64,000 bases of DNA from contig BDTG01000004.1 in assembly GCA_002897695.1 (NCBI GenBank), positions 11,752 to 75,751 of the forward strand. The letters run 5' to 3'. Within the stretch, counting starts at the first letter, position 1, and each line of letters begins with the position of its first letter. The translations under genes and the position numbers were made by a program. The DNA is from a bacterium BMS3Abin14. Its GTDB lineage: Bacteria > BMS3Abin14. The notes under the pieces were generated by a model, which saw nothing but the letters and a program-made list of their open reading frames with translations, made no database searches and was not told the origin of the DNA. Shown piece by piece: positions 41,433 through 61,176 of the stretch.

Positions 41433-41567
41433 TTTACGCCTCCTGCTTTTTGATTATCTGCGACGGCCCGTTATGTGTCAAGGAAAGCGGAGCAGCCCTG
41501 TCCTTTTCAAACCCGCACTTTTGTGATAAAAAGAACATAAGTGTTTGTATCTTCCGGGGGAGTAGAC

Positions 41568-42977: not shown

Positions 42978-43054
42978 ATGGACTATTTACGACCCTGTCA
43001 ATGTGGCAGTAACCTCTCCCTGAAAAGGGAACAGGGGAAACGGAGGAGGCGGGC

Positions 43055-44608
43055 GTGCGTCTGAAACTGATCGTTCAGATCTCGCTGATTACAGGAATCG
43101 TCCTGTTTTTTACCTCCGCCCTTTTCGGTTATTTCAACATCTCCACCCTCAAACATGCCTTCCTCGAGAGTACAGTAACCGACCTCGACCATCTGAGCGA
43201 AACCATACTTAGAACCGTATTCCATCAGATGCTGAAAAACGACAGGGATGAGATCCAGGTTACGATAAGGGAGGTCGCCCAACAGAAGGGGATTGAGCAG
43301 GTCAGGCTTATCAACAGAGAGGGAGTGGTGGCCCTCTCCACCGGAAGGGCTGGAATCAGCGCCGGCCCCGGTGGCGTAAAGGCCCCTGCCTGCATAATTT
43401 GCCATAACTATGGAATGTCCTGGGAAGATCCCTCCCCCATGGCCCGAAGCAGAATGTTCCTTGACAGTAACGGGAACAAAGTTCTCGGCCTGGTCAAGCC
43501 CATATATAATGAGAAGGTGTGCTGGACCGGTGAATGCCATACCCATTCCAGGGATACACATCTTCTGGGCCTTCTGGACATTACCATCTCCGCCGCCCCC
43601 ATGCTGTCGAAGATCCGCAATTATCGCAACAATACAATCATTCAGATACTTTTCCTGATCCTCTCCATATCACTCTGCCTCACCCTGCTCACCCAGAGGC
43701 TGATCGTCAAGCCGGTTCATACGCTGTTGGAACACACACGGGCCGTCGGCAGGGGAAAATGGCGTTTCATAGAGTCGGTGCCGGGGGATGAACTGGGGGA
43801 ACTTGCCGAGGCGTTCAACGACATGACAGGCAAACTGAAAAAGGCCCGGGAGGAACGGGATGAGTGGGCAGCAACCCTGGAAACCCGCGTGGAGGAACGA
43901 ACGCGCAAAATAAAGGAGATGCAGTCCGTTCTTATCCGCTCGGAAAAACTGGCGTCCCTCGGGGAACTCGTCGCGGGGATCGCCCACGAGCTCAATAATC
44001 CTCTTACGGGGATCATGATACACGCTCCTTTCATCGCGGAGGACCCACGGCTGGACGAAGGGCTGAAAGAGGATTGCCAAACTATTATCCACGAGGCCAA
44101 GCGCTGCTCCAGGATCGTCAGGAAACTGCTGGACTTCGCCAGGGTTTCCGATCCCCAAAAAACGATGCAGTCGGTCAATGAGGCCATTAATCGAAGCATT
44201 GCCCTGATTGAGCACCATGCCGATTTCAACGACATCGAGATCGTCAAAGAGTATGCTCCTGACCTTCCGAATACATTGATGGACGCTTCCCAGATCGAAC
44301 AGGTCTTCATCAACATGATGGTTAACGCTAGCCAGGCAATGCCGGCGGGGGGGAAGCTGACCATCGGAACGGGGTTAAATGCGGCAGGGGACAGCATCTA
44401 CATCCGGATCGAGGACACAGGCTGCGGCATTCCGAAAGAAAACATGGAAAAACTCTTCGATCCCTTTTTCAGCACCAAGGGAAACAAGGGAACCGGCCTG
44501 GGCCTTTCGGTTTCCTACGGAATCATCCAGTCCCACGGCGGTGAGATCGAGGTTGACAGCAAGCCGGACAGAGGGACAGTCTTTATCATTACTCTTCCCG
44601 TCGCATGA
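43055..44608 (+). CDS. Sensor histidine kinase with two c-type heme motifs in its periplasmic domain
   Basis: 517 residues from a GTG with GGAGGAGG upstream. A transmembrane helix (about 5-27) and a second near 190-215 bracket a periplasmic domain with CIICH at 112 and CWTGECH at 156 (CX2CH and CX4CH). HAMP follows, then HisKA with GIAHELNNPLTGIM and HATPase with NMMVNASQAM, DTGCGIP, and GTGLGLSV. The heme motifs suggest redox sensing. It is the likely partner of the upstream response regulator. Confidence 0.92.
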   Translation: MRLKLIVQISLITGIVLFFTSALFGYFNISTLKHAFLESTVTDLDHLSETILRTVFHQMLKNDRDEIQVTIREVAQQKGIEQVRLINREGVVALSTGRAGISAGPGGVKAPACIICHNYGMSWEDPSPMARSRMFLDSNGNKVLGLVKPIYNEKVCWTGECHTHSRDTHLLGLLDITISAAPMLSKIRNYRNNTIIQILFLILSISLCLTLLTQRLIVKPVHTLLEHTRAVGRGKWRFIESVPGDELGELAEAFNDMTGKLKKAREERDEWAATLETRVEERTRKIKEMQSVLIRSEKLASLGELVAGIAHELNNPLTGIMIHAPFIAEDPRLDEGLKEDCQTIIHEAKRCSRIVRKLLDFARVSDPQKTMQSVNEAINRSIALIEHHADFNDIEIVKEYAPDLPNTLMDASQIEQVFINMMVNASQAMPAGGKLTIGTGLNAAGDSIYIRIEDTGCGIPKENMEKLFDPFFSTKGNKGTGLGLSVSYGIIQSHGGEIEVDSKPDRGTVFIITLPVA

Positions 44609-45195: not shown

Positions 45196-46053
45196 CTAAA
45201 CCGGATCAACCTCCTCTTCTTTTGACATACTATCCTCTTCCCTGATTTTTCTCAATTCCATTTCAGCAAGATGTCTCCCCCTGGCCATGTCAAGATAGGT
45301 CCTTGCAAGTGACTCAACTTCCCTGACTCCTTTTGGAAGATCGTTATCCAGGCTCCCCTCGGAGACCTTTTTCACATAGTCCATCAACTGGCCAATCGGA
45401 TGCAGAAGGTTCCGTCTGAGGATGGCGCTTACCCCGCCCACCGACAAGATGAGAACCATTATGCAGAAAACCGTCATTCTCCAGCGCAGGGCGCGCAGTC
45501 TTGTGTCCAGAGGATCGGGCGACAGACCGACATCCAGTGTTCCGAGAATTTTCTGGTGGGGAGGGTGAAAATGACAGTCACCCGCGGAGCATCCGGTATC
45601 GTTGTATATGGGCGCGGTGATAGCCAGCACATTGCGGTTCTTTTTATTTACGAACCGCCTCGCCTGCTGCATGGACCCCAACCGTGCCGTCGGCTTGGAA
45701 CCGCTGTGACACCCTATACAGCCGGCTGTCTTTTTGTCCACGACCTGGTTTACCTCCCCGGGGTCCGAGGAGAACATGATAACCCCTTTTTTATTGAAGA
45801 TACGAAGATGCTCGACTCCCTTCTGGGCGCCGATACTGTCTATTACACGGTAAAGGGTTTCCCTGTCCGACTTCATCATGGTGTAGCGCGTTGAACTGAT
45901 GACGGTATCGGCAAGGCTGACCTCATGCTGTATCGCATCCCTCAGAAGGTCCCCCTTAATGGAGGAGTAGAGAATGAGGCTGCAGACGATGACAAAGCCG
46001 GTCAGGGAAAGCGCGATCGGGACAATGGCTTTGGAAACGAAGTTGTTAAACAT
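45196..46053 (-). CDS. Diheme-sensor HAMP protein without a kinase domain
   Basis: 285 residues from the ATG at 46053 (GGAGGAG upstream). A transmembrane helix (9-31) precedes a periplasmic domain with CIGCH near 112 and CSAGDCH near 156, at the same positions as in the histidine kinase at 43055. A second helix (about 190-215) leads to a HAMP domain and about 50 charged residues, after which the protein ends. No catalytic or methyl-accepting domain is present. It may be a redox sensor that signals through a partner. Confidence 0.88.
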   Translation of the reverse strand: MFNNFVSKAIVPIALSLTGFVIVCSLILYSSIKGDLLRDAIQHEVSLADTVISSTRYTMMKSDRETLYRVIDSIGAQKGVEHLRIFNKKGVIMFSSDPGEVNQVVDKKTAGCIGCHSGSKPTARLGSMQQARRFVNKKNRNVLAITAPIYNDTGCSAGDCHFHPPHQKILGTLDVGLSPDPLDTRLRALRWRMTVFCIMVLILSVGGVSAILRRNLLHPIGQLMDYVKKVSEGSLDNDLPKGVREVESLARTYLDMARGRHLAEMELRKIREEDSMSKEEEVDPV

Positions 46054-46108
46054 GTCCACTCCTCCTTTCCGGCCTTCCGTAAGCGCGGTGATGATTTCTG
46101 AAAAGCGC

Positions 46109-47401
46109 TCAACCCTGAGGTGGTCTTGAGGTAGTCCTGTACGCCGCGGACGGCGCTGCCCTCCACGGATACAGGATTGGGAGCCGGTAGAGGATAAAAC
46201 GATACACCACCACGAACAGGGCAAACAATGTTACCGATATGATCAGTTCGAACGGGTGGGGGATTTCCTGATAAAGGTTCCAGTTGAAACTGATCAGGGC
46301 AGTATCCAGACGGTTCATCACCACACCAAAAATGGTGAGAAAAGCGGTAAACCGGGCCAGACCTACGCTGTTTTTCCTGATGGCGATGGAGAAGAGGATG
46401 AGGGGAAGAATTACCCCAAGGAAGATCTCCAGCATGAACAAACGACCCCAGCCGGTTGCCAGATAGGCCCACTCGTTGTCATGGGCAATCCCTATAAGCT
46501 TGATAGCCAGGTAGGTTATCAGAGCCATGGCTGAGCCTTTGGCCAGACTGATGGTAATGGTCCCGAGATTATCCAGAAACTCACGGCTGCATCTCCAGGC
46601 CATGGTTTTTTCAACAATGGTGCTCACCGCAATGATCATGCACAGCCCCGCGAATACCGATGAACAGAGAAAAAATATCCAGAGAAACTCCTGCGAATAC
46701 CAGAGTGGATGCACCTTTCCCGGCGCATAGGTAAAGAGGGCTCCCAAGGCCCCCTGGTGGAGAGTTGACAGGATAATCCCGGCCACGGTCAGCCCGATGG
46801 TCCCACTTTTTATAAACTTCTTCGCGTTGGGCCAGTTGATCCATTCAAAAAACGACTCGGAAACTTCCATCATCTGCACTGACAGGTAGATCGCAACATG
46901 CCACCCGACCAGAAAGAGGACAGCAGCCGTACCCCAGGAAACAAACATGGGATAGTAGAGCCGCCACGGACGCCCAAGATCCATCAGGAGGTAAATAACC
47001 GCAAAGGAATATCCCATCAATCCGTTGAGCAGCGCCAGTTGCAATATGGGCTTGAATTTGCTCTGGCCAAACAGTTCCACCGCAGTACCGAGCAGAAACC
47101 CAGAGGCGGAGAGTGGGACCATTACGAAGAGTCCGAAACCCAGGAAAAGACCCCACGGATAATCGTTGGAAGCGCGGGTAACGGCGCCGAGGCCCGCGGC
47201 ATACCTGTACAGGATTAGAGGAAAGCCCACGGCAAAGATCAGGGCTATGACCCAATTGAACGGGTTATGCAGGACCTGCCGCAAGTACTCCCTGGGCGAG
47301 AATCCCAGCAGAAGTTTCTGCCTGAAGCTCCACGTATGGCCATCATCAGGATCATTCAGAGAGTCGATCGGCCTAAAGCCATTTTCCACAAGGCGGTTCA
47401 T
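46109..47401 (-). CDS. NrfD/PsrC-family quinone-interacting membrane protein
   Basis: 430 residues with nine or ten transmembrane helices (e.g. NWVIALIFAVGFPLILYRY, FLGFGLFVMVPLSASGFLL, PIIDL-like loop PMFVSWGTAAVLFLVGWHVA). This is the NrfD family that passes electrons between quinone and a periplasmic iron-sulfur partner. It overlaps the stop of the 4Fe-4S gene by four bases, and the five-heme cytochrome lies before that, giving a quinol:cytochrome electron path. No molybdopterin subunit is nearby. Confidence 0.93.
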   Translation of the reverse strand: MNRLVENGFRPIDSLNDPDDGHTWSFRQKLLLGFSPREYLRQVLHNPFNWVIALIFAVGFPLILYRYAAGLGAVTRASNDYPWGLFLGFGLFVMVPLSASGFLLGTAVELFGQSKFKPILQLALLNGLMGYSFAVIYLLMDLGRPWRLYYPMFVSWGTAAVLFLVGWHVAIYLSVQMMEVSESFFEWINWPNAKKFIKSGTIGLTVAGIILSTLHQGALGALFTYAPGKVHPLWYSQEFLWIFFLCSSVFAGLCMIIAVSTIVEKTMAWRCSREFLDNLGTITISLAKGSAMALITYLAIKLIGIAHDNEWAYLATGWGRLFMLEIFLGVILPLILFSIAIRKNSVGLARFTAFLTIFGVVMNRLDTALISFNWNLYQEIPHPFELIISVTLFALFVVVYRFILYRLPILYPWRAAPSAAYRTTSRPPQG

Positions 47402-48345
47402 TCTCCCTGGCCCTCCTCTCCATTATGCGGCTCTTTATCTTCCGTTTCTTCCTTTCCCCCGGTCGCCAGCAGGTGAAATCCCATAAACATGGCGGGCCAG
47501 ATGGCCAGGACCATCGGCACGGTGGAAAGGAAACTCTTTGCGTTGTCCAGGATCGGATGGTGCTGAAGGGTGGTGTCGAAACCCACCTGGTCGAAAGGAA
47601 CGCCGGAAAGGTACATCCAGGACGTTCCGCCTACCTCCGTCTCCCCGTAGACATAGTCTATATACTTCTCGGGTTCCGACCGGATCCGCTCATGGGCGAT
47701 CTTTATGAGGGTTTTCCGGTGGCCAAAGGTGAGGGTCTCCTGGGGGCAAGCCTCTACACAGGCGGGAGGCTTCCCATATTTCAGGCGGGTGTCGTAGCAG
47801 AAGATACATTTTCTTATCCTGGGCTCGAAAGCGCTGGAATAGGAGAATGCCGGGATTCGGAAGGGACAGGCGATCATGCAGTTTCTGCATCCGACACAGA
47901 CATTCGGGTTGTAGATAACCGCTCCCTCATCTGTCTTAGTGTAGGCGTTGACGAAACACGAGGTCAGACATGCCGGTTCGTTGCAATGGTTGCACTGGAT
48001 CTTTCGATAGACCGGCCCGCCTGATCCCTCCGTCTCATATCGGTTGACGACCGTGTAGGCCCCCTCGTCGGTTCTGCGCTTCTGTGTGCCTTCGTGGAAG
48101 GTCTGGTCAAAAACCGAAGGATCGTCGAAGGGAAGGTCGGGCTCAGGAAGGCCCTGTTCCAGGTTGCACGCCGCCTCGCAGGTTCGGCAGCCGACACACC
48201 TGGTCAGGTCCACCAGCACCCCCATCCCCTCCGGGTAACCCTCGAACTCAGCCATGCCCAGGGCATTTTTGGTTGAGAACAACACCAGGGCGCTGCCGCC
48301 GGCAACGGTTGCCTTCAGGAATCTTCTCCGGCTTATACCACTCAT
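47398..48345 (-). CDS. Tat-exported 4x[4Fe-4S] ferredoxin subunit (HybA/DsrO/NrfC-like)
   Basis: 315 residues from the ATG at 48345. The twin-arginine signal SRRRFLKATVAGG opens the protein. Four cluster motifs follow: CVGCRTCEAAC, CNHCNEPACLTSC, CVGCRNCMIACP, and CIFCYDTRLKYGKPPACVEACP. A C-terminal transmembrane helix (LAIWPAMFMGFHLLA) anchors it, as in HybA. It links the NrfD protein with the five-heme cytochrome in the periplasm. Confidence 0.94.
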   Translation of the reverse strand: MSGISRRRFLKATVAGGSALVLFSTKNALGMAEFEGYPEGMGVLVDLTRCVGCRTCEAACNLEQGLPEPDLPFDDPSVFDQTFHEGTQKRRTDEGAYTVVNRYETEGSGGPVYRKIQCNHCNEPACLTSCFVNAYTKTDEGAVIYNPNVCVGCRNCMIACPFRIPAFSYSSAFEPRIRKCIFCYDTRLKYGKPPACVEACPQETLTFGHRKTLIKIAHERIRSEPEKYIDYVYGETEVGGTSWMYLSGVPFDQVGFDTTLQHHPILDNAKSFLSTVPMVLAIWPAMFMGFHLLATGGKEETEDKEPHNGEEGQGE

Positions 48346-48396
48346 AATGTTCCAGCCCCCTTTCCATGTCGCAAGACGATCCCTTTCCATGAGAAC

Positions 48397-48924
48397 CTAT
48401 TCATGCTGCCCTCCGATCCCGCCGCCTGAAGGCGCATATTTGCCGGAATGATAGAATTTATTGCCCGCATCAGTCCTTTTGTGACAGTCCGTACACCCTG
48501 AGGGCGCTCCCATTTCAACGTGGCAATTGAGGCATCTCAGGTGATAGGCGCCTTTGAGTCCAGGTATGTCGTTATGAAACCGATCCGGATCGGACTCCAT
48601 CGCCTTGATATGTTTTGCGGTGAAAGGATCTTTAACGTGGCAATCCGGGCAAGCCGCGGAGGATGTGCCTTTGTTATCCGAATGGCATTTCGCACATTTT
48701 TTCTCCGCAACGTTCGCTCCAAACGCGTGATGATGGCAGACAGAGCAATCGTCCGCGATGTTCATGTGCATCGCGTGGTCAAAATCCACCCCACCGTAGA
48801 GGTTGGACAGGGAGTCTATCAGCAAGGATGAGGGCGGATCACCGGCGGCGCCGAAAGTTGGACCGGCGATAAAAAACAGCGCCACGATCATCCCTGCCAG
48901 TGCCCATTTCCTTCTCCTTTTCAT
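48397..48924 (-). CDS. Five-heme periplasmic cytochrome c (cytochrome c3 family)
   Basis: 175 residues from the ATG at 48924 (GGGAGG upstream). A signal peptide (ALAGMIVALFFIAGPTFG) is followed by five CxxCH motifs: CSVCH, CAKCH, CPDCH, CLNCH, and CTDCH. The distal His residues expected for bis-His heme are present around them. It is 51 bases upstream of the ferredoxin subunit and probably receives its electrons for release to the periplasm or to the outer-membrane conduit. Confidence 0.92.
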   Translation of the reverse strand: MKRRRKWALAGMIVALFFIAGPTFGAAGDPPSSLLIDSLSNLYGGVDFDHAMHMNIADDCSVCHHHAFGANVAEKKCAKCHSDNKGTSSAACPDCHVKDPFTAKHIKAMESDPDRFHNDIPGLKGAYHLRCLNCHVEMGAPSGCTDCHKRTDAGNKFYHSGKYAPSGGGIGGQHE

Positions 48925-48955
48925 CCGTTCGTCCCTCCCATGGTGTGCAGACTCG

Positions 48956-49153
48956 TTATTTATCATGTCTCTCATGTTTCCCGACATCCCCCCGGTATTT
49001 GATAACGTCCCTGTAAAATATCGGAAACACTACGAAAAACCCGAGGCAGATAAGGTATTCGACGGCCTTGACATAATTATAGTAGTCCACAAGAGTGTGT
49101 ATCTGCACCAATCTGCCGATGAAATCGAAAAACTCTGTTATCAGATGGACCAT
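48956..49153 (-). CDS. Small single-helix membrane protein
   Basis: 65 residues; AAGGAG upstream of the ATG at 49153. A hydrophobic helix (about residues 30-48, VEYLICLGFFVVFPIFY) lies between polar ends. No family recognised. It lies 31 bases before the five-heme cytochrome gene. Similar small proteins are frequent in NrfD/cytochrome modules and may help assembly; that role is inferred. Confidence 0.7.
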   Translation of the reverse strand: MVHLITEFFDFIGRLVQIHTLVDYYNYVKAVEYLICLGFFVVFPIFYRDVIKYRGDVGKHERHDK

Positions 49154-50578: not shown

Positions 50579-50775
50579 CCCTCAAGGGAGGGGAATGTTG
50601 AGGAGAAGCCAGGTGGGGGGAACACCCCATCCCTGTTAAATCATGCCTTTACCTGCGATAAGGGCCGCATTATCCGGATTAACCATTTTCTATTCATTTG
50701 TGATAAGTTTTGTCGGTCAGTGGATTATTCACACTCATGGGTACTGCAGGTTTTACTGGGGGGACACCGAACACC

Positions 50776-52977
50776 ATGACCAGGAGAATCCCGGAAAACA
50801 TTTTCCTCGAGATGGGTGAACTGCTGAACTCCAGCCTCGATGAGACGAGTATACTTCGAACCTTCTGCAACAAGATTCTGTCCCTGTTCGAAGCGGAAAG
50901 GGTCTCTATCCTTGCGGTGGACCCTCAGGGAAAGAAACTGACACTCACCGCATGGGCGGGCAGATACCCTGAGGATTTCGGCGGGGTCAGCATACCCATT
51001 GGAGAAGGGGTGGCAGGTTGGGTCGCGGCAACGGGAGAAAGCCTGTTGGTCCAGGACGTCCGAAAGGATCCACGATTTCCTGACCCCTTTCCGGACCGAT
51101 ACAGGACCCGGTCCTTCATCAGCGTTCCCCTCAAGAGTCGCGGAAAACTCCTTGGAGTCCTTAACGTTACCGATACATCCCGGAATGCAGGTTTTTCCGA
51201 TGAGAACCTCAGTATTCTCAACCCCCTCGCCCTGCAGGTAGGCATGGGGATGGAAAATCTTCTCTTGAAAGAAAGGTCGGATTTCGGGGGCACCGGACTA
51301 TCCACCCTCACATCGACTATCAGGAGCATCAAGACAGATGTCATCGACATGGAGAACGGGTTGATTCCGAGTCTGATGCGAGGAGTTGAATCTGTACTCA
51401 ATCCACAATTTCACATTATTCTGATGGGCGAAATGGGATCCAACCGTGCCTGGGTGGGACGTTCTTCAAGGAATGGCCTCTCCGAGGTGTCGGTCATGGA
51501 TTATTCTTCCGGTTTAAGACTGTATCAGTCCCTTTCGACAATGTCGCTCCACTCCCCCATGCCGGACCATCCTTACCTGAGGGAACCCGGGATCGAGTGG
51601 GAGCTGGTTCTGGAGGAAAAGCTGAACCTCGTCAGAAGTGTCCTTCCTCCCAGGCCAGACATCTTCGGGATAAGCCTGGGGGCGATCCTCGACATGGATC
51701 CGGAAACCGGCGGCATCCTGCGTCATTTACAGAACCTCATCATAATGTTTGGAGGCCTCGTTATGGAGAGTATTTCAGACAGGTCACAGATTCGAAAACT
51801 GGACCACCTGAAAACCGAACTCATATCCACCGTCTCCCACGAACTCAGAACTCCGTTGACATCCATTCAAGGTTTTTCGGAACTGGTTCTTCGTGGCGAT
51901 GGTATTCCTGACCCGCAGCGAAAGTATCTGTCCATTATCAACAGTGAAAGTCAAAGGCTCAACCGCCTCATCAATGATTTTCTGGATCTGGCACGCCTGG
52001 AATCCGGGCAGTTGAATCTCGTCAAGGAACCCATGGACCCGGTGCAAGTCGTGGAGAGCGCGGTGCGGCTGCTTAAACCCCAGACGGAGGCGGGAAAGGC
52101 TTTCGTACACCTCGACTGTCGGCAGAAACTGCCCTGCCTTATCGCCGATCGGGATCGAATCGAGCAGGTTCTTGTCAACCTTGTAAGCAATGCCATCCGA
52201 CATGGGGGCTCCGGGGTCCATATCAGCATCACGGTTCAAAAACATGCCGGCAATACGGTATTCGAGGTAAAGGACGATGGGCCGGGCATCCCCGAGGAGG
52301 AGCACGGCCTGGTTTTTACACGTTTCTACCGCGGCATTCTCGGCAGGGACGATGATGAGGAAGCAGGCGGGGATAAGGGAACAGGGCTGGGCCTCGCCCT
52401 GACAAAGGAGATCGTTGAACAACATGGAGGAACAATCTCTATGGAAAGCGTTCCCAACGAGAGGACTGTTTTTCGGTTTTCCCTGCCAACAAGGGGACTC
52501 ATTCGACCCCATAGCGGCATTGTAGCCTGGGATCCGGGAGACGAGGGTTTTTCCATTGACCTTGCGGGGAGGCTCTCAGAGGGAAAAACGGTTGGGGTAT
52601 TGACCATCCATGTCAATCCAATAGCCCCGATCAACGAAGCAGAAGCGGAGTTATCCGTAGAGAGGATCGAGGAGATTGAGGAACTCATCACCTCAACCCT
52701 CCGAACCCGCGGCATGGAGGACGATTTCATCCAGAGCCGGCCCCAGGCCGAATTCGTTGTCCTCACTTACGCCTCGATGGTGGATGAATACGCGGCGGGC
52801 CTTCTCAAGGCATTCACTGACCGCTTTGGTGATGTGTACGAACTGGCCATTGGTGCATCCATCTCGGAAGGAATGGACAAAAAAGATAACGGGGACCTTC
52901 TGAAGCTTTCCAGACAGGCCTGTCTTTTCGTCGAAAGAGACCGGGGAACCGGGTACCTCAAAAACAGGAGGATGTAA
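50776..52977 (+). CDS. GAF-domain histidine kinase with degenerate GGDEF-like C-terminus
   Basis: 733 residues. GAF at about 15-165 (VSIPIGEGVAGWVAATGE, FISVPLKSRGKLLGVLNV). A linker follows, then HisKA with STVSHELRTPLTSIQGFSEL near 355 and HATPase with LVSNAIRHGG, KDDGPGIP, and GTGLGLALTKEI. The last 150 residues (LTIHVNPIAPINEAEAEL, then PQAEFVVLTYA and ELAIGASISEG) look like a GGDEF fold whose catalytic motif is replaced. Start at ATG 50776 is likely; an ATG at 50737 is possible. No transmembrane helix, so cytoplasmic. Confidence 0.85.
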   Translation: MTRRIPENIFLEMGELLNSSLDETSILRTFCNKILSLFEAERVSILAVDPQGKKLTLTAWAGRYPEDFGGVSIPIGEGVAGWVAATGESLLVQDVRKDPRFPDPFPDRYRTRSFISVPLKSRGKLLGVLNVTDTSRNAGFSDENLSILNPLALQVGMGMENLLLKERSDFGGTGLSTLTSTIRSIKTDVIDMENGLIPSLMRGVESVLNPQFHIILMGEMGSNRAWVGRSSRNGLSEVSVMDYSSGLRLYQSLSTMSLHSPMPDHPYLREPGIEWELVLEEKLNLVRSVLPPRPDIFGISLGAILDMDPETGGILRHLQNLIIMFGGLVMESISDRSQIRKLDHLKTELISTVSHELRTPLTSIQGFSELVLRGDGIPDPQRKYLSIINSESQRLNRLINDFLDLARLESGQLNLVKEPMDPVQVVESAVRLLKPQTEAGKAFVHLDCRQKLPCLIADRDRIEQVLVNLVSNAIRHGGSGVHISITVQKHAGNTVFEVKDDGPGIPEEEHGLVFTRFYRGILGRDDDEEAGGDKGTGLGLALTKEIVEQHGGTISMESVPNERTVFRFSLPTRGLIRPHSGIVAWDPGDEGFSIDLAGRLSEGKTVGVLTIHVNPIAPINEAEAELSVERIEEIEELITSTLRTRGMEDDFIQSRPQAEFVVLTYASMVDEYAAGLLKAFTDRFGDVYELAIGASISEGMDKKDNGDLLKLSRQACLFVERDRGTGYLKNRRM

Positions 52978-53305
52978 GGGCAGATCTCGAACCTGCGACC
53001 CGTGACCATCAATTTTTTCCGAAGGGGAAAAATGTTATGTGTGGGATCAGTTCCACCCGGGACGGCCGCCGCAATATGCCCGACTCCCTCTGGCCGGATG
53101 CCCGAAGGGAGACGGAGGATTAACGCGCTTGAGCAGTCCATATTCCCCTCCATGAAAAACCGCGGCAAGGGGATGATGGAAGCCCTTCAGGAAAGGGAGA
53201 GAAGGGGCCTTTTCCGCCTGAAACATATCAAGAACGGAAAGGCTGGGACAATTGGCCGGTATGAAGGCGCTGGAAAGGAACCTGACAGGGAAAAGAATCA
53301 AATAA
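52978..53305. other. Gap after the GAF kinase
   Basis: A 328-base stretch between the kinase stop and the terminator at 53306. One plus-strand frame (53002-53424) runs through it but overlaps the terminator and the cytochrome gene end and has no family likeness. Nothing else was seen. Confidence 0.4.
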
Positions 53306-53332
53306 GGGGGGCGGCCATTCAGGCCGCCCCCC
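53306..53332. terminator. Bidirectional intrinsic terminator
   Basis: GGGGGGCGGCC (53306-53316), loop of five, and GGCCGCCCCCC (53322-53332) form a perfect 11-pair stem. T-rich sequence follows on the minus strand (TTATTTGATTCTTTT) and CTTT on the plus strand. It ends the multiheme lipoprotein operon. Confidence 0.85.
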
Positions 53333-53366
53333 TTTCGGATCGTAAGGATTTTCTCCTTCTTTTACA

Positions 53367-55463
53367 TCAGGGCCGGGTAGTCCCTTCCAGCCAGGCAACT
53401 CCATCCGGGTGGCTGGATGAGTAATCAGGGATGGTCCCGACCACGGACCCGTGGTTGAGAAAGTCGATGGAATCGAAGATAAGGCGCCTGGCATAGTCAC
53501 TGTTGTGGGCAAACGCCCCCGGCTCCTTGGTGAGGAGGTTCAGATTGAAGGCCGCCCCGAGGGTCTGCTCATCGGGCCAGTCTTTAAAAGCGTTCCCGTA
53601 AGTTTGCTCTGCGGGAACGGCCGAGAGGTAGAAGTAGGGATAGGCGAGCGGATTATAATATATCGGAGTCGTTTGCACACCCAGCTCATCCTCAAGAATT
53701 CCCAGCGCGTCCGCGAAGCCATCGGCCTGCTCAGCAAAGGTTGTCGGGGTCCATACGGGCTCTCCCACGCCGTTGTGGCAGATGGTACAGAAATCCGCCG
53801 GAGTGTCGTCAATGGGGTCGCCGTTAGCGTCGATCTTGAAGGGGGTGTACAGATGGTTGGCGTGCCCGTCGCTCGTGTCGTGCATATGGCAGCTGACACA
53901 GGGACCGTTATCCCCGGTTCCTTCCCAATCTCCGATGCCGATCTTGATATGCTCGAAATCCGGCGAGTTGGAGTAATCAAGCGTAGTCGTGCTGCCGGCC
54001 GGCACATATTCATAACCCATGGGCCTGGCGTCGGACCGGAAAAGGATCCCGGCGGCGGCGAGGTAGTGGGAGTTCGCGCCACCGAAGTTCGCCGTCGAAA
54101 GGGCTGTAGCATAATTATTCTTGATGTACTGACCCGTCGAGCGGCCCTGGTGGCAGTAGGAACACACCGCACTGTTGTTCGCGTTCACCGAGTCGGCCAC
54201 GGCTCCATCATGGTCAAAGAGGGATATGACGCCGGTGAACCTCAACCTGAGGTTGGCTGCCGACGGATAATCCACGCCGTTGTGACATGCGTTGCAGGTG
54301 ATGTAGGCACCCTTACCGACAGGAACTGATGTTGGCGCATCGCCCGCTGAATCGGGTGCGACCGCCGCAAACCCGTACGCTGTATGGCACCGGACACATG
54401 CCGAACTGAAATTGTGTTCGATTGCCCCCCAGTTTGCCGGACCGGATGGAGCCCCGGCAGTCAGAGGCCCCTCTGGGATGGGATGGTGCCCGCTCTTGGC
54501 CCACTCCAGGTTAATGGTCAGGTCAAATTCGTGCGGAGCATGGCAACTGGCGGTACACGAATCTTTCGAGTTGGCGTTGGCCATACCGCTGTTAGGCGAG
54601 CTGTTGCTGGTGTCCACGTAGCCGAGCTTGGCGTTGGCCGAGACGTACTGGGTGAGCATGTCGTCCCCGGCGATCCAGTATTCATTGAAATGTGTGTCGT
54701 TGATGGTGTGGTCGCCGCTGTAATAATACGGCCCGTCCCAACTCCCCGTCCAAGCGGTGCCGGAGTGAGCCGGCAACGTCCAGACCGTAATGCCGTTCGC
54801 AGTGGAGGTGATAGCAGGTCCGTTGCCACTCCCGAAGCTAATCCCGACCGAATTGGCCCAGGAATATTTACTGTCCCGACTGTGGTGTTCGGTCGCGGCA
54901 TCGGCGTGACAAACTGTGCACTGGGCATAACCCGGCACTGGGTAGGGCAACGCTCCTACGCCATAGTGAAAACTCCCGCCGCCGTGGCAGGCTTCACAAT
55001 CGATAATACTCCGGTTGACCTCCCCGATGTTGGGGTTCGTGAACACGTCCCCGCCGGCATTGATATCAAGGATGTCGCCGCCATAATCGGGCCCGGTATG
55101 GCAGGGAGCGCACCTGTCGGTTCCGTCGGCTGCGAGATGCGCACCGGGATCCCCGGTAATCTTGTCGTAGCCGTACGTCGTCCCGCTGGTTGACCCAATA
55201 GCTTCCATGCTGCTGTAGTCTATCCGGGTGCCGTCACCGAGGTCGAAGTTGGCATGGCGGCTCTTGGCCCACTGGTTGAACTTCGTCTGGTTGTGGCATG
55301 TATAGCAGTTCTGCAAACCAACGTACGTCGCAGTCTGTGCCAGCCCTCCGCCGGCGCCAGTCTGGTCCCCTCCGGATTCTTTCAGCGCGCTGCCGCAGGC
55401 GCTGACAAACCCCACGACCATGAGCGCAAACAGGACGACAACAATGTTTCGCTTAATAAACAT
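53367..55463 (-). CDS. Multiheme c-type cytochrome lipoprotein, about ten hemes
   Basis: 698 residues. A lipoprotein signal peptide (VVLFALMVVGFVSACG) suggests outer-membrane anchoring. Nine CxxCH motifs (CYTCH, CAPCH, CEACH, CTVCH, CVRCH, CNACH, CSYCH, CVSCH, CTICH) and one CTASCH (CX3CH) are visible. It may be the outer-surface electron acceptor of the conduit formed with the ten-heme protein and beta-barrel encoded upstream, in the MtrCAB style. No close relation to MtrC or OmcB could be shown by eye. Confidence 0.88.
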   Translation of the reverse strand: MFIKRNIVVVLFALMVVGFVSACGSALKESGGDQTGAGGGLAQTATYVGLQNCYTCHNQTKFNQWAKSRHANFDLGDGTRIDYSSMEAIGSTSGTTYGYDKITGDPGAHLAADGTDRCAPCHTGPDYGGDILDINAGGDVFTNPNIGEVNRSIIDCEACHGGGSFHYGVGALPYPVPGYAQCTVCHADAATEHHSRDSKYSWANSVGISFGSGNGPAITSTANGITVWTLPAHSGTAWTGSWDGPYYYSGDHTINDTHFNEYWIAGDDMLTQYVSANAKLGYVDTSNSSPNSGMANANSKDSCTASCHAPHEFDLTINLEWAKSGHHPIPEGPLTAGAPSGPANWGAIEHNFSSACVRCHTAYGFAAVAPDSAGDAPTSVPVGKGAYITCNACHNGVDYPSAANLRLRFTGVISLFDHDGAVADSVNANNSAVCSYCHQGRSTGQYIKNNYATALSTANFGGANSHYLAAAGILFRSDARPMGYEYVPAGSTTTLDYSNSPDFEHIKIGIGDWEGTGDNGPCVSCHMHDTSDGHANHLYTPFKIDANGDPIDDTPADFCTICHNGVGEPVWTPTTFAEQADGFADALGILEDELGVQTTPIYYNPLAYPYFYLSAVPAEQTYGNAFKDWPDEQTLGAAFNLNLLTKEPGAFAHNSDYARRLIFDSIDFLNHGSVVGTIPDYSSSHPDGVAWLEGTTRP

Positions 55464-55483
55464 TATTCACTCCTCCTCCTTAA

Positions 55484-56299
55484 TCAGTGGCAGCGGCGGC
55501 ACGTCTTGCCATCGCTTGCTCCATTGAGCGTGTCCTTGATATCACCCCAGTTCGCGGGATGGGGATTTACGATAAGACCTTCGCGCGCGCTGTGGCACTT
55601 CAGGCAAACGTCCGCGTCTGGATGGCATGCCTGGCACGTGGGAAGGTTGCGCCGGGCCTCACGGGCATGGCCCTCGGTCCAGTCGTGGGTAGGCAGAACT
55701 GAATTGGTATGGCAGTTCTGACAGTCCGTCACATTAAAAGTGTCATGGAGAACCAGCCCGGCGGAGATATCGCTGAATCCCCTCCTGTGAGACACAAGCG
55801 CCAGATCATCCCGCTGAAAATCATTGTGGCAATCTACACAGAAGCCCTTATCCTCGTGGCAGATGGTACAGCTGCGATCATCCGCCCTGGCGAGGATCGG
55901 ATGGGTAACCAGGAAATCACTGCGATGGATGCCGGCCTTGCCCTGCTCATCGGCAAATCCTGCCTTATGGCAATCGAGACAGAACTTCTGCTCAACATGG
56001 CAGGTCTCACAGTTCCGATCCAATTTTTTGGCATAGGGACCGTGTTCCTTATACCAGAAGCTGTCGTGGGTAACCGGGACGGGAATCCGGACCTTTTCTG
56101 CAAAACCCTTCTCGTGGCATTGCTCACAACGGGACGCCGGGGGCTGGATGGACAGATCACCGGTCTGGTGGCAGTCGGAACAATCGACCCCCTGATCCTT
56201 GACGTGGAAATCGTGATCGAAGACAGGGCTGTCCGCCGCCCACAGTGCAGCAGGCGAGAAAAGGAGGACTATGAAAGACAGGATTATTATTCTTCGCAT
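55484..56299 (-). CDS. Ten-heme periplasmic cytochrome c (MtrA-like)
   Basis: 271 residues from the ATG at 56299. After a signal peptide (IIILSFIVLLFSPAALWA) ten CxxCH motifs occur at near-regular spacing: CSDCH, CEQCH, CETCH, CLDCH, CTICH, CVDCH, CQNCH, CQACH, CLKCH, and CRRCH. The small size for ten hemes (about 25 residues each) is as in MtrA-type decaheme proteins that sit within a beta-barrel. It is 12 bases after the barrel gene and 20 bases before the lipoprotein gene. Confidence 0.92.
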   Translation of the reverse strand: MRRIIILSFIVLLFSPAALWAADSPVFDHDFHVKDQGVDCSDCHQTGDLSIQPPASRCEQCHEKGFAEKVRIPVPVTHDSFWYKEHGPYAKKLDRNCETCHVEQKFCLDCHKAGFADEQGKAGIHRSDFLVTHPILARADDRSCTICHEDKGFCVDCHNDFQRDDLALVSHRRGFSDISAGLVLHDTFNVTDCQNCHTNSVLPTHDWTEGHAREARRNLPTCQACHPDADVCLKCHSAREGLIVNPHPANWGDIKDTLNGASDGKTCRRCH

Positions 56300-56311
56300 G
56301 GCACCCACCCT

Positions 56312-57523
56312 TTAGAAGCGGTACCGCAGACTGACACGGCCCCGATTGAAGTAGTCGTATATAATGCTCTCGATCCGCTCCAGCTTGACGTCAAGTTTAA
56401 GGTCCTTGGAAATGTCCCGACCGGCCCTGATCCAGTAGCGCTTGGCGGAGGTGTCGTCATTGTTATTGGTTTCGATCCGGGTATAGACATTGTACTCGGC
56501 CCCCAGGTCAAGGGAGATCCCGTAGGGAACTTTCGTGCGGATATTTCCCTTTATCCCCTTCAAATCCTCAGCGCTGTCCCTCCAAATCCCTGACAGATAA
56601 CCCGAGATTCCCCCTGGCCGGCGAAGTTCGCACCCTGCCTCGTAGACGTGGGCATCGTTCATGGAGCGGTAGAACTCCTGAGTGTACCCCCCGAAAAGGG
56701 TCCATTCCCGGTCCAGTTGATAGTCGGCGGTAAGGGATATTTCACGGAAGTCGTCCACCGCAAAGACGGAGTAGATGTCGGTGGTATCAAACACGGGAGT
56801 GGTGCCGTAGTATTCGGCCTTGAGCTTCCAACGCTCCTGAGGCACATACCTCACGCCCGCAAGGTAGTAGCCGAAAACCTGAGACAGCAGATCGTACTGC
56901 CCCTCGGCGTAAACGGAACTGCGGGGGGCAATCCTCATGTCGGCCGACATGCCAAGGAATTCCCTCGCCAGGTCGCCGCCAACCCACTTCTGGAGATAGC
57001 TCAACCCCAGATCGGTCCCCTTCCAGTGATGGTCGCTGACGGCAAAGCCCAAGGCGTAATCATCCGACCGATCATCACTGATCGTAACGTATCCACCGCC
57101 GAAGACGTCGGCTGTAATAGACCCGAAACGCCGGGTTGTCAGCCTGACCCCGTCGATGATGGGAGATCCAGCCACCGTGTTTACCCATTGGCGGCCGACT
57201 CGCAGATCCGTTTTAAGGAGAACACCCTTTTTTTCCCAGTAGGCATAATAGAGACGGCTGTCCGCGTCCACTTCATTGGAGAGGTCCGTCCCCAGACGAC
57301 CGTAGATCCGCATCTTCCATCCGTCGGCCGCCTTCGCGTCATCGATCCGGAGATGAAAATACTGATAGAACGGCATGGCGGAGTTGCCGTTTGGCGCATT
57401 GTAGGACTCCACCACCGTCCTGGTCTCCCCGCTCACCCGCACATTCACGGCCGACATGGCCACTCCAGGAAAGACAAGGAGAAGCAGAAGGACAAGCCCC
57501 GCATAAGAACACTTTTTTCCCAT
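56312..57523 (-). CDS. Outer-membrane beta-barrel protein, probable porin of the conduit
   Basis: 403 residues from the ATG at 57523. A signal peptide (LVLLLLLVFPGVAMS) precedes alternating aromatic/polar strands such as YYAYWEKKGVLLKTDLRVG and RYWIRAGRDISKDLKLD; the C-terminus ends in YRF, the typical outer-membrane signal. It is shorter than MtrB (about 700 residues). First gene of the three-gene cytochrome operon. Confidence 0.8.
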   Translation of the reverse strand: MGKKCSYAGLVLLLLLVFPGVAMSAVNVRVSGETRTVVESYNAPNGNSAMPFYQYFHLRIDDAKAADGWKMRIYGRLGTDLSNEVDADSRLYYAYWEKKGVLLKTDLRVGRQWVNTVAGSPIIDGVRLTTRRFGSITADVFGGGYVTISDDRSDDYALGFAVSDHHWKGTDLGLSYLQKWVGGDLAREFLGMSADMRIAPRSSVYAEGQYDLLSQVFGYYLAGVRYVPQERWKLKAEYYGTTPVFDTTDIYSVFAVDDFREISLTADYQLDREWTLFGGYTQEFYRSMNDAHVYEAGCELRRPGGISGYLSGIWRDSAEDLKGIKGNIRTKVPYGISLDLGAEYNVYTRIETNNNDDTSAKRYWIRAGRDISKDLKLDVKLERIESIIYDYFNRGRVSLRYRF

Positions 57524-57645
57524 ACCCGCTCCCATCCCACGTTGGCACATCGCCGGCGTAAAAAAGCCCACCCATGGCCAACTGTTAAAGAACGCCGCTT
57601 TTCCGCACCCCTGCTTCTGAGCGACACAATCTGGGCACAGGTACA

Positions 57646-57660
57646 GCAAGGGGCATGCCA
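57646..57660 (-). promoter_or_regulatory. Sigma-54 promoter of the porin-cytochrome operon
   Basis: On the minus strand TGGCATGCCCCTTGC has the GG and GC ten bases apart and matches TGGCACG-N4-TTGC at all but one position. It lies about 120 bases above the beta-barrel start. Confidence 0.75.
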
Positions 57661-57734
57661 GCTAATTCCAACGACAAAAGGGTTTTCAAAACAGCAGGTT
57701 GCATTCATCCAGACGCGTGGCTCCCGGGCTGATC

Positions 57735-57764
57735 TGGTGAGTTCACCACTTTGACATGGTCAAA
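57735..57764. promoter_or_regulatory. Two adjacent palindromes, likely activator binding sites
   Basis: TGGTGA-GT-TCACCA (57735-57748) and TTTGAC-ATG-GTCAAA (57750-57764) are both perfect inverted repeats, about 75-105 bases above the -24 element of the sigma-54 promoter, the usual enhancer distance. Confidence 0.6.
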
Positions 57765-57808
57765 TAGCCGGACCGGAGCATGCAGCCGCTTAACGCTCGT
57801 GCTGGTAA

Positions 57809-58300
57809 ATGCGCGTAATATTAAGGGAAATCATCAGGATGTTTCGTAAACGGGATGGGGAAGCTATTTTGGCACGGGACTTGAAAAAGACCTGCAACAT
57901 GATGGACATTGTCGCACCGGTTCCCGGCACAAAACGGATCCTGATCGTGGATGACGATCCACTGACTGCTCAGGCCCTCGTGAGATCGCTGCGCCAGGAC
58001 GGCCATGACATCCTCGTCATCGGTAATGGCATGCGCGCCCTCTACGAAATCCAGGCGAACCCATACGCGCTGGTCTTCCTCGAGATCCAGATATCCGACA
58101 AGTCAGGCATGTATGTGTTACGGGAAATCAGACGGACATCACCGTCTACATGCGTCGTCGTCATGTCGGTGGACATTCCCAACGACGAGGTGAAAGAGGC
58201 CATTGAAAGATTCGCCCAGCTCTTTTTGCCGAAACCGTTTGAAATGCTTCAGGTCAGGAAACTGGCTACACAGGCCCTGGCGAAAGCAGATCCTCATTGA
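57809..58300 (+). CDS. Stand-alone receiver protein with Glu at the phospho-Asp position
   Basis: 163 residues (a start at 57899 gives 133). The receiver has ILIVDDDP (acid pair) and the conserved Lys in LFLPKPF, but LVFLEIQISDKSG has Glu where Asp is phosphorylated. A Glu can mimic the phosphorylated form. No output domain. It is divergent from the conduit operon; a weak GG-N10-GC pair lies near 57770-57783. Confidence 0.8.
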   Translation: MRVILREIIRMFRKRDGEAILARDLKKTCNMMDIVAPVPGTKRILIVDDDPLTAQALVRSLRQDGHDILVIGNGMRALYEIQANPYALVFLEIQISDKSGMYVLREIRRTSPSTCVVVMSVDIPNDEVKEAIERFAQLFLPKPFEMLQVRKLATQALAKADPH

Positions 58301-58324: not shown

Positions 58325-59713
58325 TTATTCAAGTCCGAATTTTTTGATTTTGTACCTGAGGGCATCGTAGCCTATTGAGAGGAGCCGCGCCGCGCCGGCC
58401 ATGTTGTTTTTCGACATCACAAGGGCTTGCCGGATGAGCGTCTCCTCCACCTCATCCAGGGATATCCCCTTTTCCGGCAGCGTAAATGCCCGCGGCCCTT
58501 CTGCCCTGGAAGTCCCCTCCTGGAGGCCAATCTCCCTGGGGAGATGATCGGGCGTGATGATCTCGGTATTTCCAAGAACAGCCATCCGTTCCACAACGTT
58601 TTTAAGCTCCCTTATATTGCCCGGCCATGGATAGGACGCCATCAGCTCCTCCGCTTCCGGCGAAAAACCACGGATGGGCATCCTCTTGTACTCCCGGGAG
58701 AACGCGTCGAGGTAGTGCAAGGCGATGGGCATGATGTCTTCCTTCCTGTGTCTCAGGGGAGGGATGTGGAAGGTAAAGGCGCTCAATCGGTAGAAAAGAT
58801 CGCTGCGGAAGGAAGCCTTTTCGACGGCTCGGGAAATATCGATATTGGTCGTTGCCATGACGGTCAGGCTTAACGGGATACTCTTCTTACCCCCGATCCG
58901 GCGCACGGACCTCTCCTCAAGGACTCTCAGGAGCTTGCTCTGCAGGTCGGTCCGCATTTCTCCAATCTCATCTAAGAGAAGCGAACCATCGTTCGCCAGT
59001 TCGAATATCCCCCTCTTGTCTGAACCGGCGTCCGTGAACGCACCTTTGACGTGCCCGAAAAGCTCGCTCTCCATCAGGTGCTCCGGAATGCCTGAACAGT
59101 TAATGCCGACAAAGGGTGAATCGGTTTTATCCCCGGCCCCGTGAATCACTCCGTGGAGATAACGGGCCAGGAGTTCCTTGCCGGTGCCGCTCTCACCTGT
59201 TATCAAAATCGCGGAAACTTTGGCGCCGGCCAGCTTGTCCGCCTTTTCCTTGAGTTCTCTCATGGCTGAAGATTCCCCGATGAACCTCTTCCCTACCTTT
59301 GGGGAAGTGAGCCGGCTCAGGTAGTCGACCCTTCTCCTGAGGTCCTCCTTTTCCATGATGCTGCCGATAACTATTTTCAGCTTCTCCATCTCGAAAGGCT
59401 TGGTCACATAGTCCACGGCGCCCAACTTCATGGCATTTATCGCCGTTTCGGCGGTGTCATCGGCGGTGAGGATCACAACATGCGTTTCTGAAAATCTCTT
59501 CCTGAGGTCCTCCATCGCCTCAAGGCCGCTCCTGCCGGGAAGACCAATATCCAGCAGAACAACGTCGGGTGAGAATGAAGCGACCTTTTCCTCCAGATCC
59601 AGGGCATTCGTTCTGGACCGGACCTGGTATCCGTCTCTCTCGAACGCCCGCATAACCACCGAGACAATGAGTTCATCGTCGTCAACGATAAGAATCCGGC
59701 CTTTTTTCATCAT
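58325..59713 (-). CDS. Sigma-54-dependent response regulator with GAFTDA loop
   Basis: 462 residues from an ATG overlapping the kinase stop (ATGA). Receiver: ILIVDDDE and VLLDIGLPGRSG (Asp intact). AAA+: TGESGTGKELLARYLHG, then GHVKGAFTDAGSDKRG and DGSLLLDEIGEM. FIS helix-turn-helix: NNMAGAARLLSIGYDAL. The loop that contacts sigma-54 reads GAFTDA instead of GAFTGA. It pairs with the heme-motif kinase upstream. Confidence 0.94.
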   Translation of the reverse strand: MMKKGRILIVDDDELIVSVVMRAFERDGYQVRSRTNALDLEEKVASFSPDVVLLDIGLPGRSGLEAMEDLRKRFSETHVVILTADDTAETAINAMKLGAVDYVTKPFEMEKLKIVIGSIMEKEDLRRRVDYLSRLTSPKVGKRFIGESSAMRELKEKADKLAGAKVSAILITGESGTGKELLARYLHGVIHGAGDKTDSPFVGINCSGIPEHLMESELFGHVKGAFTDAGSDKRGIFELANDGSLLLDEIGEMRTDLQSKLLRVLEERSVRRIGGKKSIPLSLTVMATTNIDISRAVEKASFRSDLFYRLSAFTFHIPPLRHRKEDIMPIALHYLDAFSREYKRMPIRGFSPEAEELMASYPWPGNIRELKNVVERMAVLGNTEIITPDHLPREIGLQEGTSRAEGPRAFTLPEKGISLDEVEETLIRQALVMSKNNMAGAARLLSIGYDALRYKIKKFGLE

Positions 59714-61176
59714 GATCTCCGAACCCCGTTTCCGGGGTCGTTGAAAATGTGGAGACAAAACGTTGTTCCATCCCCTTCATTATTTCGAAAGGATATCCTG
59801 CCCCCATCCTGTTCCACAAGCCGTTTACAGATCGCCAGGCCAAGACCGCTGCCCTTTGGTTTGGTGGTGAAAAAGGGGTTGAAAATCCTGTCCGCGTGTT
59901 CTGGCAGGATTCCTTCCCCCGTATCGGAGACCTCCACCCGCCAGAAACCATCCTCGGGAGTTTTGAAGCTCCGAACCGTGAGGGTACCGCCTTTCGGCAT
60001 GGCATCAACCGCATTAAGCATGAGGTTCAGGAGAACCTGCTGGAGATGAATGGCATCCGCCATTATCATGGGTATCCCGTCTGCCAGATCCCTTGCCAGT
60101 ACTACTTTGCCGGCCTTTTCCGGCGGATGGGATCTTCTCTGGAGGATGATTTCCATGGCCGATGCCGTATTATCGATGACATGGTTAAGATCTTCCATCT
60201 CCATGTGGGAGGCCGGCGGCCTGGCGAAGTTAAGCAGGTTCTGCATCAATAGTTCTATCACCTTGATCTGTTCGAGGGTTTTCATGAGCAGGTCACTGTG
60301 CTCCTCATCAAGATCGATCTCGTCGAGGACCACCTGAATGGACAGTTTGATGCCGGTAATGGGGTTTTTGACCTCGTGGGCCAGCCGTGATGCCATCTCA
60401 CCCATAAGGGCCATCTGTTCGGTGTGCGCCCTGCTCGCAATTAATTCCTTCAAAGACCCTGACATTTCGTTGAAAGAGCCGGCGAGTTCTCCAAACTCGT
60501 CCTTGAGCCCCTCTATCCTGTAATCCAGGTCCCCTTCCTTCAGCCTCGATGTCGCTTTCAACAGGGAGGAGACCGGTTTTGTAAAACTGACGAAAATCCA
60601 GACGGCCACCCCAATCACCATCATGGGAGCCAGGATGACAAGCAGGAAAAGTACCACCCGGAAACGGTTGACCCGGTCAAACGTCTCCCGGGTCAGTTTC
60701 ATCATTTTCCTGTTCGTCGTTATTACCATGCCATCAACTTCCTCAATCAGTTCCTCTCCGAGATGAAAAACTTTATCTTTATCCTCCCGCAACATCGTAG
60801 CGTTGATCTTGACGGTATTAATCCGGCTCAACGCCAACTTGAAGGTTTCGCCCTTGTCATGGAGCGTCTGGAGCCGGACCTGAACCTGTTCGCTGTGATG
60901 ACAGGTCAGACAGGTGTCTAAAGCCACGCTCATTTCTGACGCATGGGAAACCAGGGCATCGAGGTTCCTGGCGAACCGGGTGCCTTTCAAGGTAAGATCC
61001 TCCTGGACCCCTTCAAGCCGGGCCAGTAATATTTCCCTCAGGCCTGCCGCCTGATGCAATTGAATCAGATAGTACAGATTCTCAACTGACCGTTGGACTG
61101 AAACAATGGCGAAGCCGCTCAATAAAACCGAAGCTGCCGACAGGGCGATGAGGACAACAATGAGTTTTTTCTTCAC
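59710..61176 (-). CDS. Sensor histidine kinase with a CxxCH heme motif
   Basis: 488 residues. A first transmembrane helix (about 5-25) and second (about 175-200) flank a periplasmic helical region with CLTCHH near residue 88, a single heme-c attachment motif. HAMP follows, then HisKA with RLAHEVKNPITGIKLS and HATPase with NLMLNAVDAMPKGG, DTGEGILP, and GSGLGLAI. It probably senses redox or gas ligands through the heme and phosphorylates the regulator that overlaps its stop. Confidence 0.92.
   Translation of the reverse strand: MKKKLIVVLIALSAASVLLSGFAIVSVQRSVENLYYLIQLHQAAGLREILLARLEGVQEDLTLKGTRFARNLDALVSHASEMSVALDTCLTCHHSEQVQVRLQTLHDKGETFKLALSRINTVKINATMLREDKDKVFHLGEELIEEVDGMVITTNRKMMKLTRETFDRVNRFRVVLFLLVILAPMMVIGVAVWIFVSFTKPVSSLLKATSRLKEGDLDYRIEGLKDEFGELAGSFNEMSGSLKELIASRAHTEQMALMGEMASRLAHEVKNPITGIKLSIQVVLDEIDLDEEHSDLLMKTLEQIKVIELLMQNLLNFARPPASHMEMEDLNHVIDNTASAMEIILQRRSHPPEKAGKVVLARDLADGIPMIMADAIHLQQVLLNLMLNAVDAMPKGGTLTVRSFKTPEDGFWRVEVSDTGEGILPEHADRIFNPFFTTKPKGSGLGLAICKRLVEQDGGRISFRNNEGDGTTFCLHIFNDPGNGVRRS

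Follow-up and report, generated by a model that had tools for sequence, protein, structure and literature searches.

A three-gene operon in a 64-kb stretch of the genome of the bacterium BMS3Abin14 (the window, to which all operon coordinates refer, minus strand) is best explained as a porin-cytochrome (Pcc) conduit of the OmbB-OmaB-OmcB type, a distant, ten-heme member of a known family (probability about 0.86). The genome comprises 2.28 Mb in 49 contigs, with an estimated completeness of 100 %. The operon encodes a β-barrel of 403 amino acids (aa), a periplasmic decaheme cytochrome c and a surface lipoprotein cytochrome with about ten hemes (Table 1), with gaps of 12 bases between the first two genes and 20 bases between the last two. 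A preliminary description of the window had reported these genes and gaps, followed by a strong terminator, and had seen in them the layout of an Mtr/Pcc-type conduit, possibly of a new class. The open reading frame (ORF) coordinates agree exactly, the terminator has a 13-pair stem, and the layout is borne out by the homology of all three proteins and by the recurrent gene order.

Homology and distribution of the operon

The window barrel matches the barrels of Geobacter and Geotalea at E values of 1e-40 to 1e-46, the 403-aa Geobacter barrels being matched at 1e-43 to 1e-46. In several Geobacter loci a 403-aa barrel is found with an 8-heme protein. One of them (L077) combines genes for a TetR regulator, a barrel of 403 aa, a protein with 8 hemes and a lipoprotein with 12, the composition published for orfR-ombB-omaB-omcB (PMC4245776, PMC4589669, PMC6148476). 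To control for heme-motif bias in the cytochrome comparisons, where CXXCH by itself can produce a match between multiheme proteins, the C, C and H of every motif were masked in models built from three orthologues. The masked models still match the 8-heme proteins of Geobacter (E about 1e-18 to 1e-20) and its 12-heme lipoproteins (E 4e-40 and 7e-30), and this bias was ruled out as the source of the homology because the matches persist. The lipoprotein, which had been thought to lack clear relatives, therefore has them, and it also matches PF22113 (40 bits, cut-off 30).

The window operon shares with OmbB-OmaB-OmcB the order porin, periplasmic cytochrome, surface lipoprotein cytochrome, as well as the size of the barrel. 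Its three proteins are homologous to those in the clusters of Geobacter species, with which it also has in common eight hemes, the distal histidine of each and the lipoprotein tether CGSxxKE[GS]. The third gene encodes a predicted outer-membrane lipoprotein multiheme cytochrome, and the heme number of the adjoining periplasmic c-type cytochrome lies in the range of 5–14 that characterizes Pcc clusters. The heme counts differ, with ten in the window and eight in Geobacter for the periplasmic protein and about ten and twelve, respectively, for the lipoprotein, and the barrel is only 30–32 % identical to those of Geobacter and Geotalea. Whereas the Geobacter cluster has a TetR regulator, no TetR-family OrfR/OrfS was found upstream of the window operon. 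Encoded there, besides a receiver protein, are a heme kinase and an NtrC-type regulator, which together with sigma-54 would take over control. OrfR/OrfS are a trait of Geobacter omcB clusters that is variable elsewhere and not essential.

When named genomes were scanned with just the barrel there were no matches, and the same scan with the decaheme alignment produced 50 loci, in Pelovirga, Desulfuromonas, Denitrovibrio, many Nitrospirota, bins assigned to Myxococcota, Geotalea and Geobacter. A barrel of the same family lies directly upstream in 51 of 55 periplasmic-cytochrome matches, and in most cases a multiheme ORF is found downstream of the cytochrome. Of the four matches without such a barrel, two begin at the edge of a contig and one (L080) is a protein of 934 aa with 13 hemes. 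Besides G002 and G005, dozens of genomes share the three-gene order. Within the taxonomic family of BMS3Abin14, barrel orthologues were found in genomes G005 (56 % identity) and G002 (53 %), each followed by a cytochrome gene (9 and 10 CXXCH, respectively) and a lipoprotein multiheme gene. In the G005 cytochrome (L019 10703–9897) one heme motif has decayed to CASCY, leaving nine. In the barrel tree the window groups with G002, Pelovirga, Desulfuromonas and Denitrovibrio (Shimodaira–Hasegawa-like approximate likelihood ratio support 100), apart from the Geobacter clade, and the barrels of this group all have ten-heme partners. The ten-heme proteins of Pelovirga (L034), Desulfuromonas (L050) and Denitrovibrio (L035) are 46–50 % identical to that of the window, but their surface cytochromes are different.

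The one genome of the same genus that was examined has only more distant barrels, and no orthologue of the window barrel was found there. A second, paralogous trio (barrel, 10-heme protein and lipoprotein with 7 CXXCH and one longer motif) is present on another contig of the BMS3Abin14 genome (G000:C19:129870–133633, L021 8849–12612) and is common to most of the family. The window conduit therefore looks accessory and the paralogous trio shared. A third barrel of the superfamily is encoded at G000:C43:45690–48364 (L130 7691–10365), with a heme protein containing six CXXCH and one longer motif about 650 bases downstream.

Table 1. Positions of the operon genes, control elements and neighbouring genes in the window
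Feature	Position	Strand	Remarks
OmbB-type outer-membrane β-barrel, 403 aa	56312..57523	-	ATG 57523, stop 56312; AlphaFold model; Geobacter homology
OmaB-type periplasmic decaheme cytochrome c, 271 aa, ten CXXCH	55484..56299	-	ATG 56299; ten conserved candidate distal His
OmcB-type surface lipoprotein multiheme cytochrome, 698 aa	53367..55463	-	ATG 55463; 9 CXXCH and 1 CXXXCH
Rho-independent terminator, 13-pair stem	53304..53334	-	3' of lipoprotein gene
Sigma-54 promoter element TGGCATGCCCCTTGCT	57645..57660	-	best match of window; TGGCACGTTCCTTGCC in G002 orthologue
Putative NtrC-type enhancer, palindrome TGGTGAACTCACCA	57735..57748	-	TGGT-N6-ACCA also at G002, L078 and L081 conduits
Possible second, degenerate enhancer CGGCTATTTGACCA	57757..57770	-	6/8 fixed positions; 22 bp from first
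Stand-alone response-regulator receiver protein	57809..58300	+	PF00072; between conduit and two-component pair
NtrC-family sigma-54-dependent response regulator, 477 aa	58325..59758	-	kept near conduit in G002, L078, L081 and L052
Sensor histidine kinase, 488 aa, one CXXCH (CLTCH), HAMP-HisKA-HATPase	59710..61176	-	frame overlaps that of regulator
Candidate inner-membrane quinol oxidase module	46109..48987	-	may be linked to conduit
Five-CXXCH cytochrome of module	48397-48987	-	
4Fe-4S protein of module	47398-48390	-	
NrfD of module	46109-47401	-	

The decaheme protein and the barrel

In an alignment of 47 sequences, the ten hemes of the window protein correspond to the eight of Geobacter together with hemes at residues 58–62 and 193–197, and the nine-heme proteins (n=22) are without heme 58–62 only. 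His32 was present in all ten ten-heme sequences and in none of the 22 nine-heme or 14 eight-heme sequences, and His185 in 10/10, 22/22 and 2/14, respectively. Eight other histidines are near-invariant across the three classes, and the ten hemes are thus matched by ten conserved candidate distal ligands. Because each histidine has been gained or lost together with its heme, we infer that His32 pairs with heme 58 and His185 with heme 193. Judged from the alignment, the window decaheme is the Geobacter eight-heme protein plus two hemes, each with its own putative distal histidine. A sequence search found no close solved relative of the OmaB-type wire.

The AlphaFold2 model of the barrel, made with 48 sequences, has 22 strands (mean predicted local distance difference test score, pLDDT, 90.7; predicted template modelling score, pTM, 0.81). 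The nearest solved folds among those compared were TonB-dependent receptors (PirA, Z 21.6, 3.6 Å, 342 residues), which are 22-strand barrels that hold a plug domain inside. In the predicted model the window barrel has no plug domain, just a short conserved loop with a helix at residues 242–258. As the barrel is as wide as these receptors yet without a plug of its own, the model suggests that a partner protein fills the cavity. Our own estimate of the backbone radius by the usual barrel formula is about 20 Å for 22 strands, compared with about 24 Å for 26, which would be room enough for a cytochrome but is no proof of one inside. MtrB was not among the matches listed in the structure search, a listing that excludes nothing.

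The barrel had been described as far shorter than MtrB. The difference in size holds, with 403 aa and 22 predicted strands in the window and 28 predicted strands published for MtrB, but it is no sign of novelty, as barrels of 18–22 strands, smaller than MtrB, are the published norm in Pcc systems (PMC4245776). The MtrCAB, MtoAB and PioAB systems also have a barrel, a decaheme periplasmic wire and a surface decaheme cytochrome, and the window conduit would work alike. They differ in that the window proteins have no match above cut-off to either the DmsE/MtrA or the OmcA/MtrC family; the decaheme scored 12.7 bits against TIGR03508 (MtrA/DmsE, cut-off 192.2), and TIGR03507 (OmcA/MtrC) was not among the lipoprotein matches up to E 0.1. 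The ExtABCD, ExtEFG and ExtHIJKL systems of G. sulfurreducens embody the same functional idea with barrels of 18–21 predicted strands but, as described, differ in gene order and heme counts (ExtA 12, ExtG 12, ExtK 5) (PMC6148476). PCC3 and PCC4 have a conserved inner-membrane protein, with very many hemes in PCC3 and three periplasmic cytochromes and no surface cytochrome in PCC4 (PMC5566968), whereas the window operon has just three genes, with ten and about ten hemes.

Control region and lipoprotein tether

The near-consensus −24/−12 promoter of the preliminary description also stands: among 732 candidate sites on the two strands of the window, TGGCATGCCCCTTGCT scores best by match to the consensus with GG and GC required, and the genome encodes RpoN. 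RpoN has already been tied to omcB expression in G. sulfurreducens (PMC2725144). Strong sigma-54 sites were found upstream of the barrels of the window, G002, L078, L081, L035 and L079. The G005 orthologue, near which no NtrC-type gene was detected, has no well-scoring site upstream, nor do most barrels of Geobacter and Nitrospirota. Such sites are not general in the conduit family.

The sigma-54 sites of the window, G002, L078 and L081 each have a TGGT-N6-ACCA palindrome upstream. G002 and L081 contain tandem copies of it, 22 bp apart, and the possible second, degenerate copy in the window has the same spacing. As background, the palindrome occurs 42 times in 1.08 Mb, which corresponds to about 0.02 for each upstream region of 450 bp, and the combination with a sigma-54 site occurs once in the whole genome, at the window conduit; these counts are only indicative because the motif was found on the same loci. 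A kinase/NtrC pair is also located near the conduits of G002, L078 (Nitrospiria), L081 (Syntrophobacterales) and L052, the last without sigma-54 site or palindrome, and the kinase has a CXXCH in all of them. In the window kinase this motif sits in the extracytoplasmic sensor region, which no Pfam family covers.

A further tandem pair of TGGT-N6-ACCA sites in L081 (15968–16004) is away from the conduit and perhaps marks another target of the same regulator. Elsewhere in the window, another NtrC-type regulator and a histidine kinase with the heme-type motifs CIICH and CWTGECH in its sensor are encoded near the NrfD module (41541–44608, plus strand), and a GAF histidine kinase (50710–52977) adjoins the conduit. 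A close homologue of the latter (E 7e-277, L026 11084–13342) adjoins another barrel/multiheme cluster in G004.

The lipoprotein has the lipobox VSAC, and the tether CGSALKESGG follows at the lipidated cysteine. The same tether, CGSxxKE[GS], was seen in this position in many lipoproteins (L037–L078, L131 and window 55463), also where the cytochrome body differs, and may be a docking or surface-export signal. The looser pattern C-x4-[KR]-[EDS] was found in 53 of 67 multiheme lipoproteins and in 5 of 14 counted as non-heme, four of these five being conduit lipoproteins that are cut or partial. The third gene of L043 and of L046 encodes an OmcA/MtrC-family protein of full length (TIGR03507, E 6e-139 and 3e-146) with the tether CGSxxKEG; the third gene of Pelovirga also belongs to this family (1.7e-85), with a tether that has no lysine. 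An OmbB/OmaB-type operon with an OmcA/MtrC-family decaheme surface cytochrome, as in L034, L043 and L046, is a hybrid of two conduit families. Swapping of the surface lipoprotein is known in Geobacter conduit clusters (PMC6148476), and no description of Pcc conduits mixed with OmcA/MtrC tips was found in the literature searched.

Proposed mechanism and alternative explanations

In the proposed complex, the 22-strand barrel would be an outer-membrane sleeve, plugged from the periplasmic side by the decaheme wire, inside or under the pore, and capped on the cell surface by the lipoprotein cytochrome. Electrons would most likely move from the quinone pool, through an inner-membrane module such as that with the cytochrome, 4Fe-4S protein and NrfD (Table 1), to periplasmic carriers and on via the decaheme to an acceptor outside the cell. 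The gene that directly follows that of NrfD, at 45196–46224, encodes a HAMP membrane protein with the motifs CIGCH and CSAGDCH and a weak match to the Mcp40H-20 sensor family. The neighbouring c-heme kinase, possibly a redox sensor, would activate the NtrC-type regulator, which would bind the TGGT-N6-ACCA enhancers, and RpoN-polymerase would transcribe the operon.

Several points weigh against assignment to the OmbB-OmaB-OmcB type. The AlphaFold model of the decaheme, made without heme, is poor (pLDDT 66.3, pTM 0.36) and too weak to judge the fit in the barrel. The Geobacter comparison is with species other than G. sulfurreducens PCA, whose signature of two identical ombB/omaB copies was not found among the 76 genomes, and the sigma-54 score and palindrome were derived from the very sequences under study. 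We infer that the complex forms and transfers electrons, and likewise its location, direction and substrate.

It is unlikely, though well worth keeping in mind, that the conduit runs inward from an extracellular donor (Fe(II) or a partner cell) or is reserved for a particular acceptor, for example sulfur or selenium oxyanions. Several substrates have been suggested for Pcc systems (PMC4245776), and many relatives are in Nitrospirota bins of unknown physiology; on the other hand, OmbB-OmaB-OmcB, the closest relatives that have been studied, reduce Fe(III) (PMC4589669). Neither dsrA nor a heme-copper oxidase was found in the genome, so the terminal acceptor must come from elsewhere, which also speaks against this use and accords with some other mode of respiration.

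A new conduit class, unrelated to Mtr and Pcc, would fit the lack of an NCBIfam family or a Pfam family above cut-off for the barrel and of a credible relative in the PDB in a single-sequence search. This proposal fails because barrel, decaheme and lipoprotein are all strongly homologous to the 8-heme/12-heme Geobacter clusters, one of which has the TetR gene, and we regard it as very improbable. That the barrel is a plain solute porin lying by chance beside cytochrome genes has in its favour a weak, sub-threshold Porin_4 match (25.8 bits, cut-off 27) and would predict neighbours without cytochromes in other genomes. The pairing of barrel and cytochrome at 51 of 55 loci contradicts this, the barrel family adjoining multiheme genes in nearly all genomes seen, and 22 strands without a plug would leave a very wide hole if empty. 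This explanation was rejected on neighbourhood and strand number and is extremely improbable.

The assignment to the OmbB-OmaB-OmcB type adds a Pcc-type conduit, besides the paralogue shared across the family, to a lineage that is little known and in which neither dsrA nor a heme-copper oxidase was detected. The clean 10-9-8 heme series with matching ligand changes should be useful in establishing in what order the hemes lie and how long the OmaB wire is. The parts worth following are the control module and the tether. We see an even chance that a redox-sensing module of c-heme kinase, NtrC regulator, tandem enhancers (22 bp apart) and sigma-54 site has stayed with Pcc conduits in separate lineages, and that the constant CGSxxKE[GS] tether is a socket for exchangeable surface cytochromes, including those of the OmcA/MtrC family. 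If this is true, the conduit would form a modular base that takes interchangeable tips and is controlled by a heme sensor, and module and tether lead to testable predictions about what turns these conduits on and how surface cytochromes dock and exchange.

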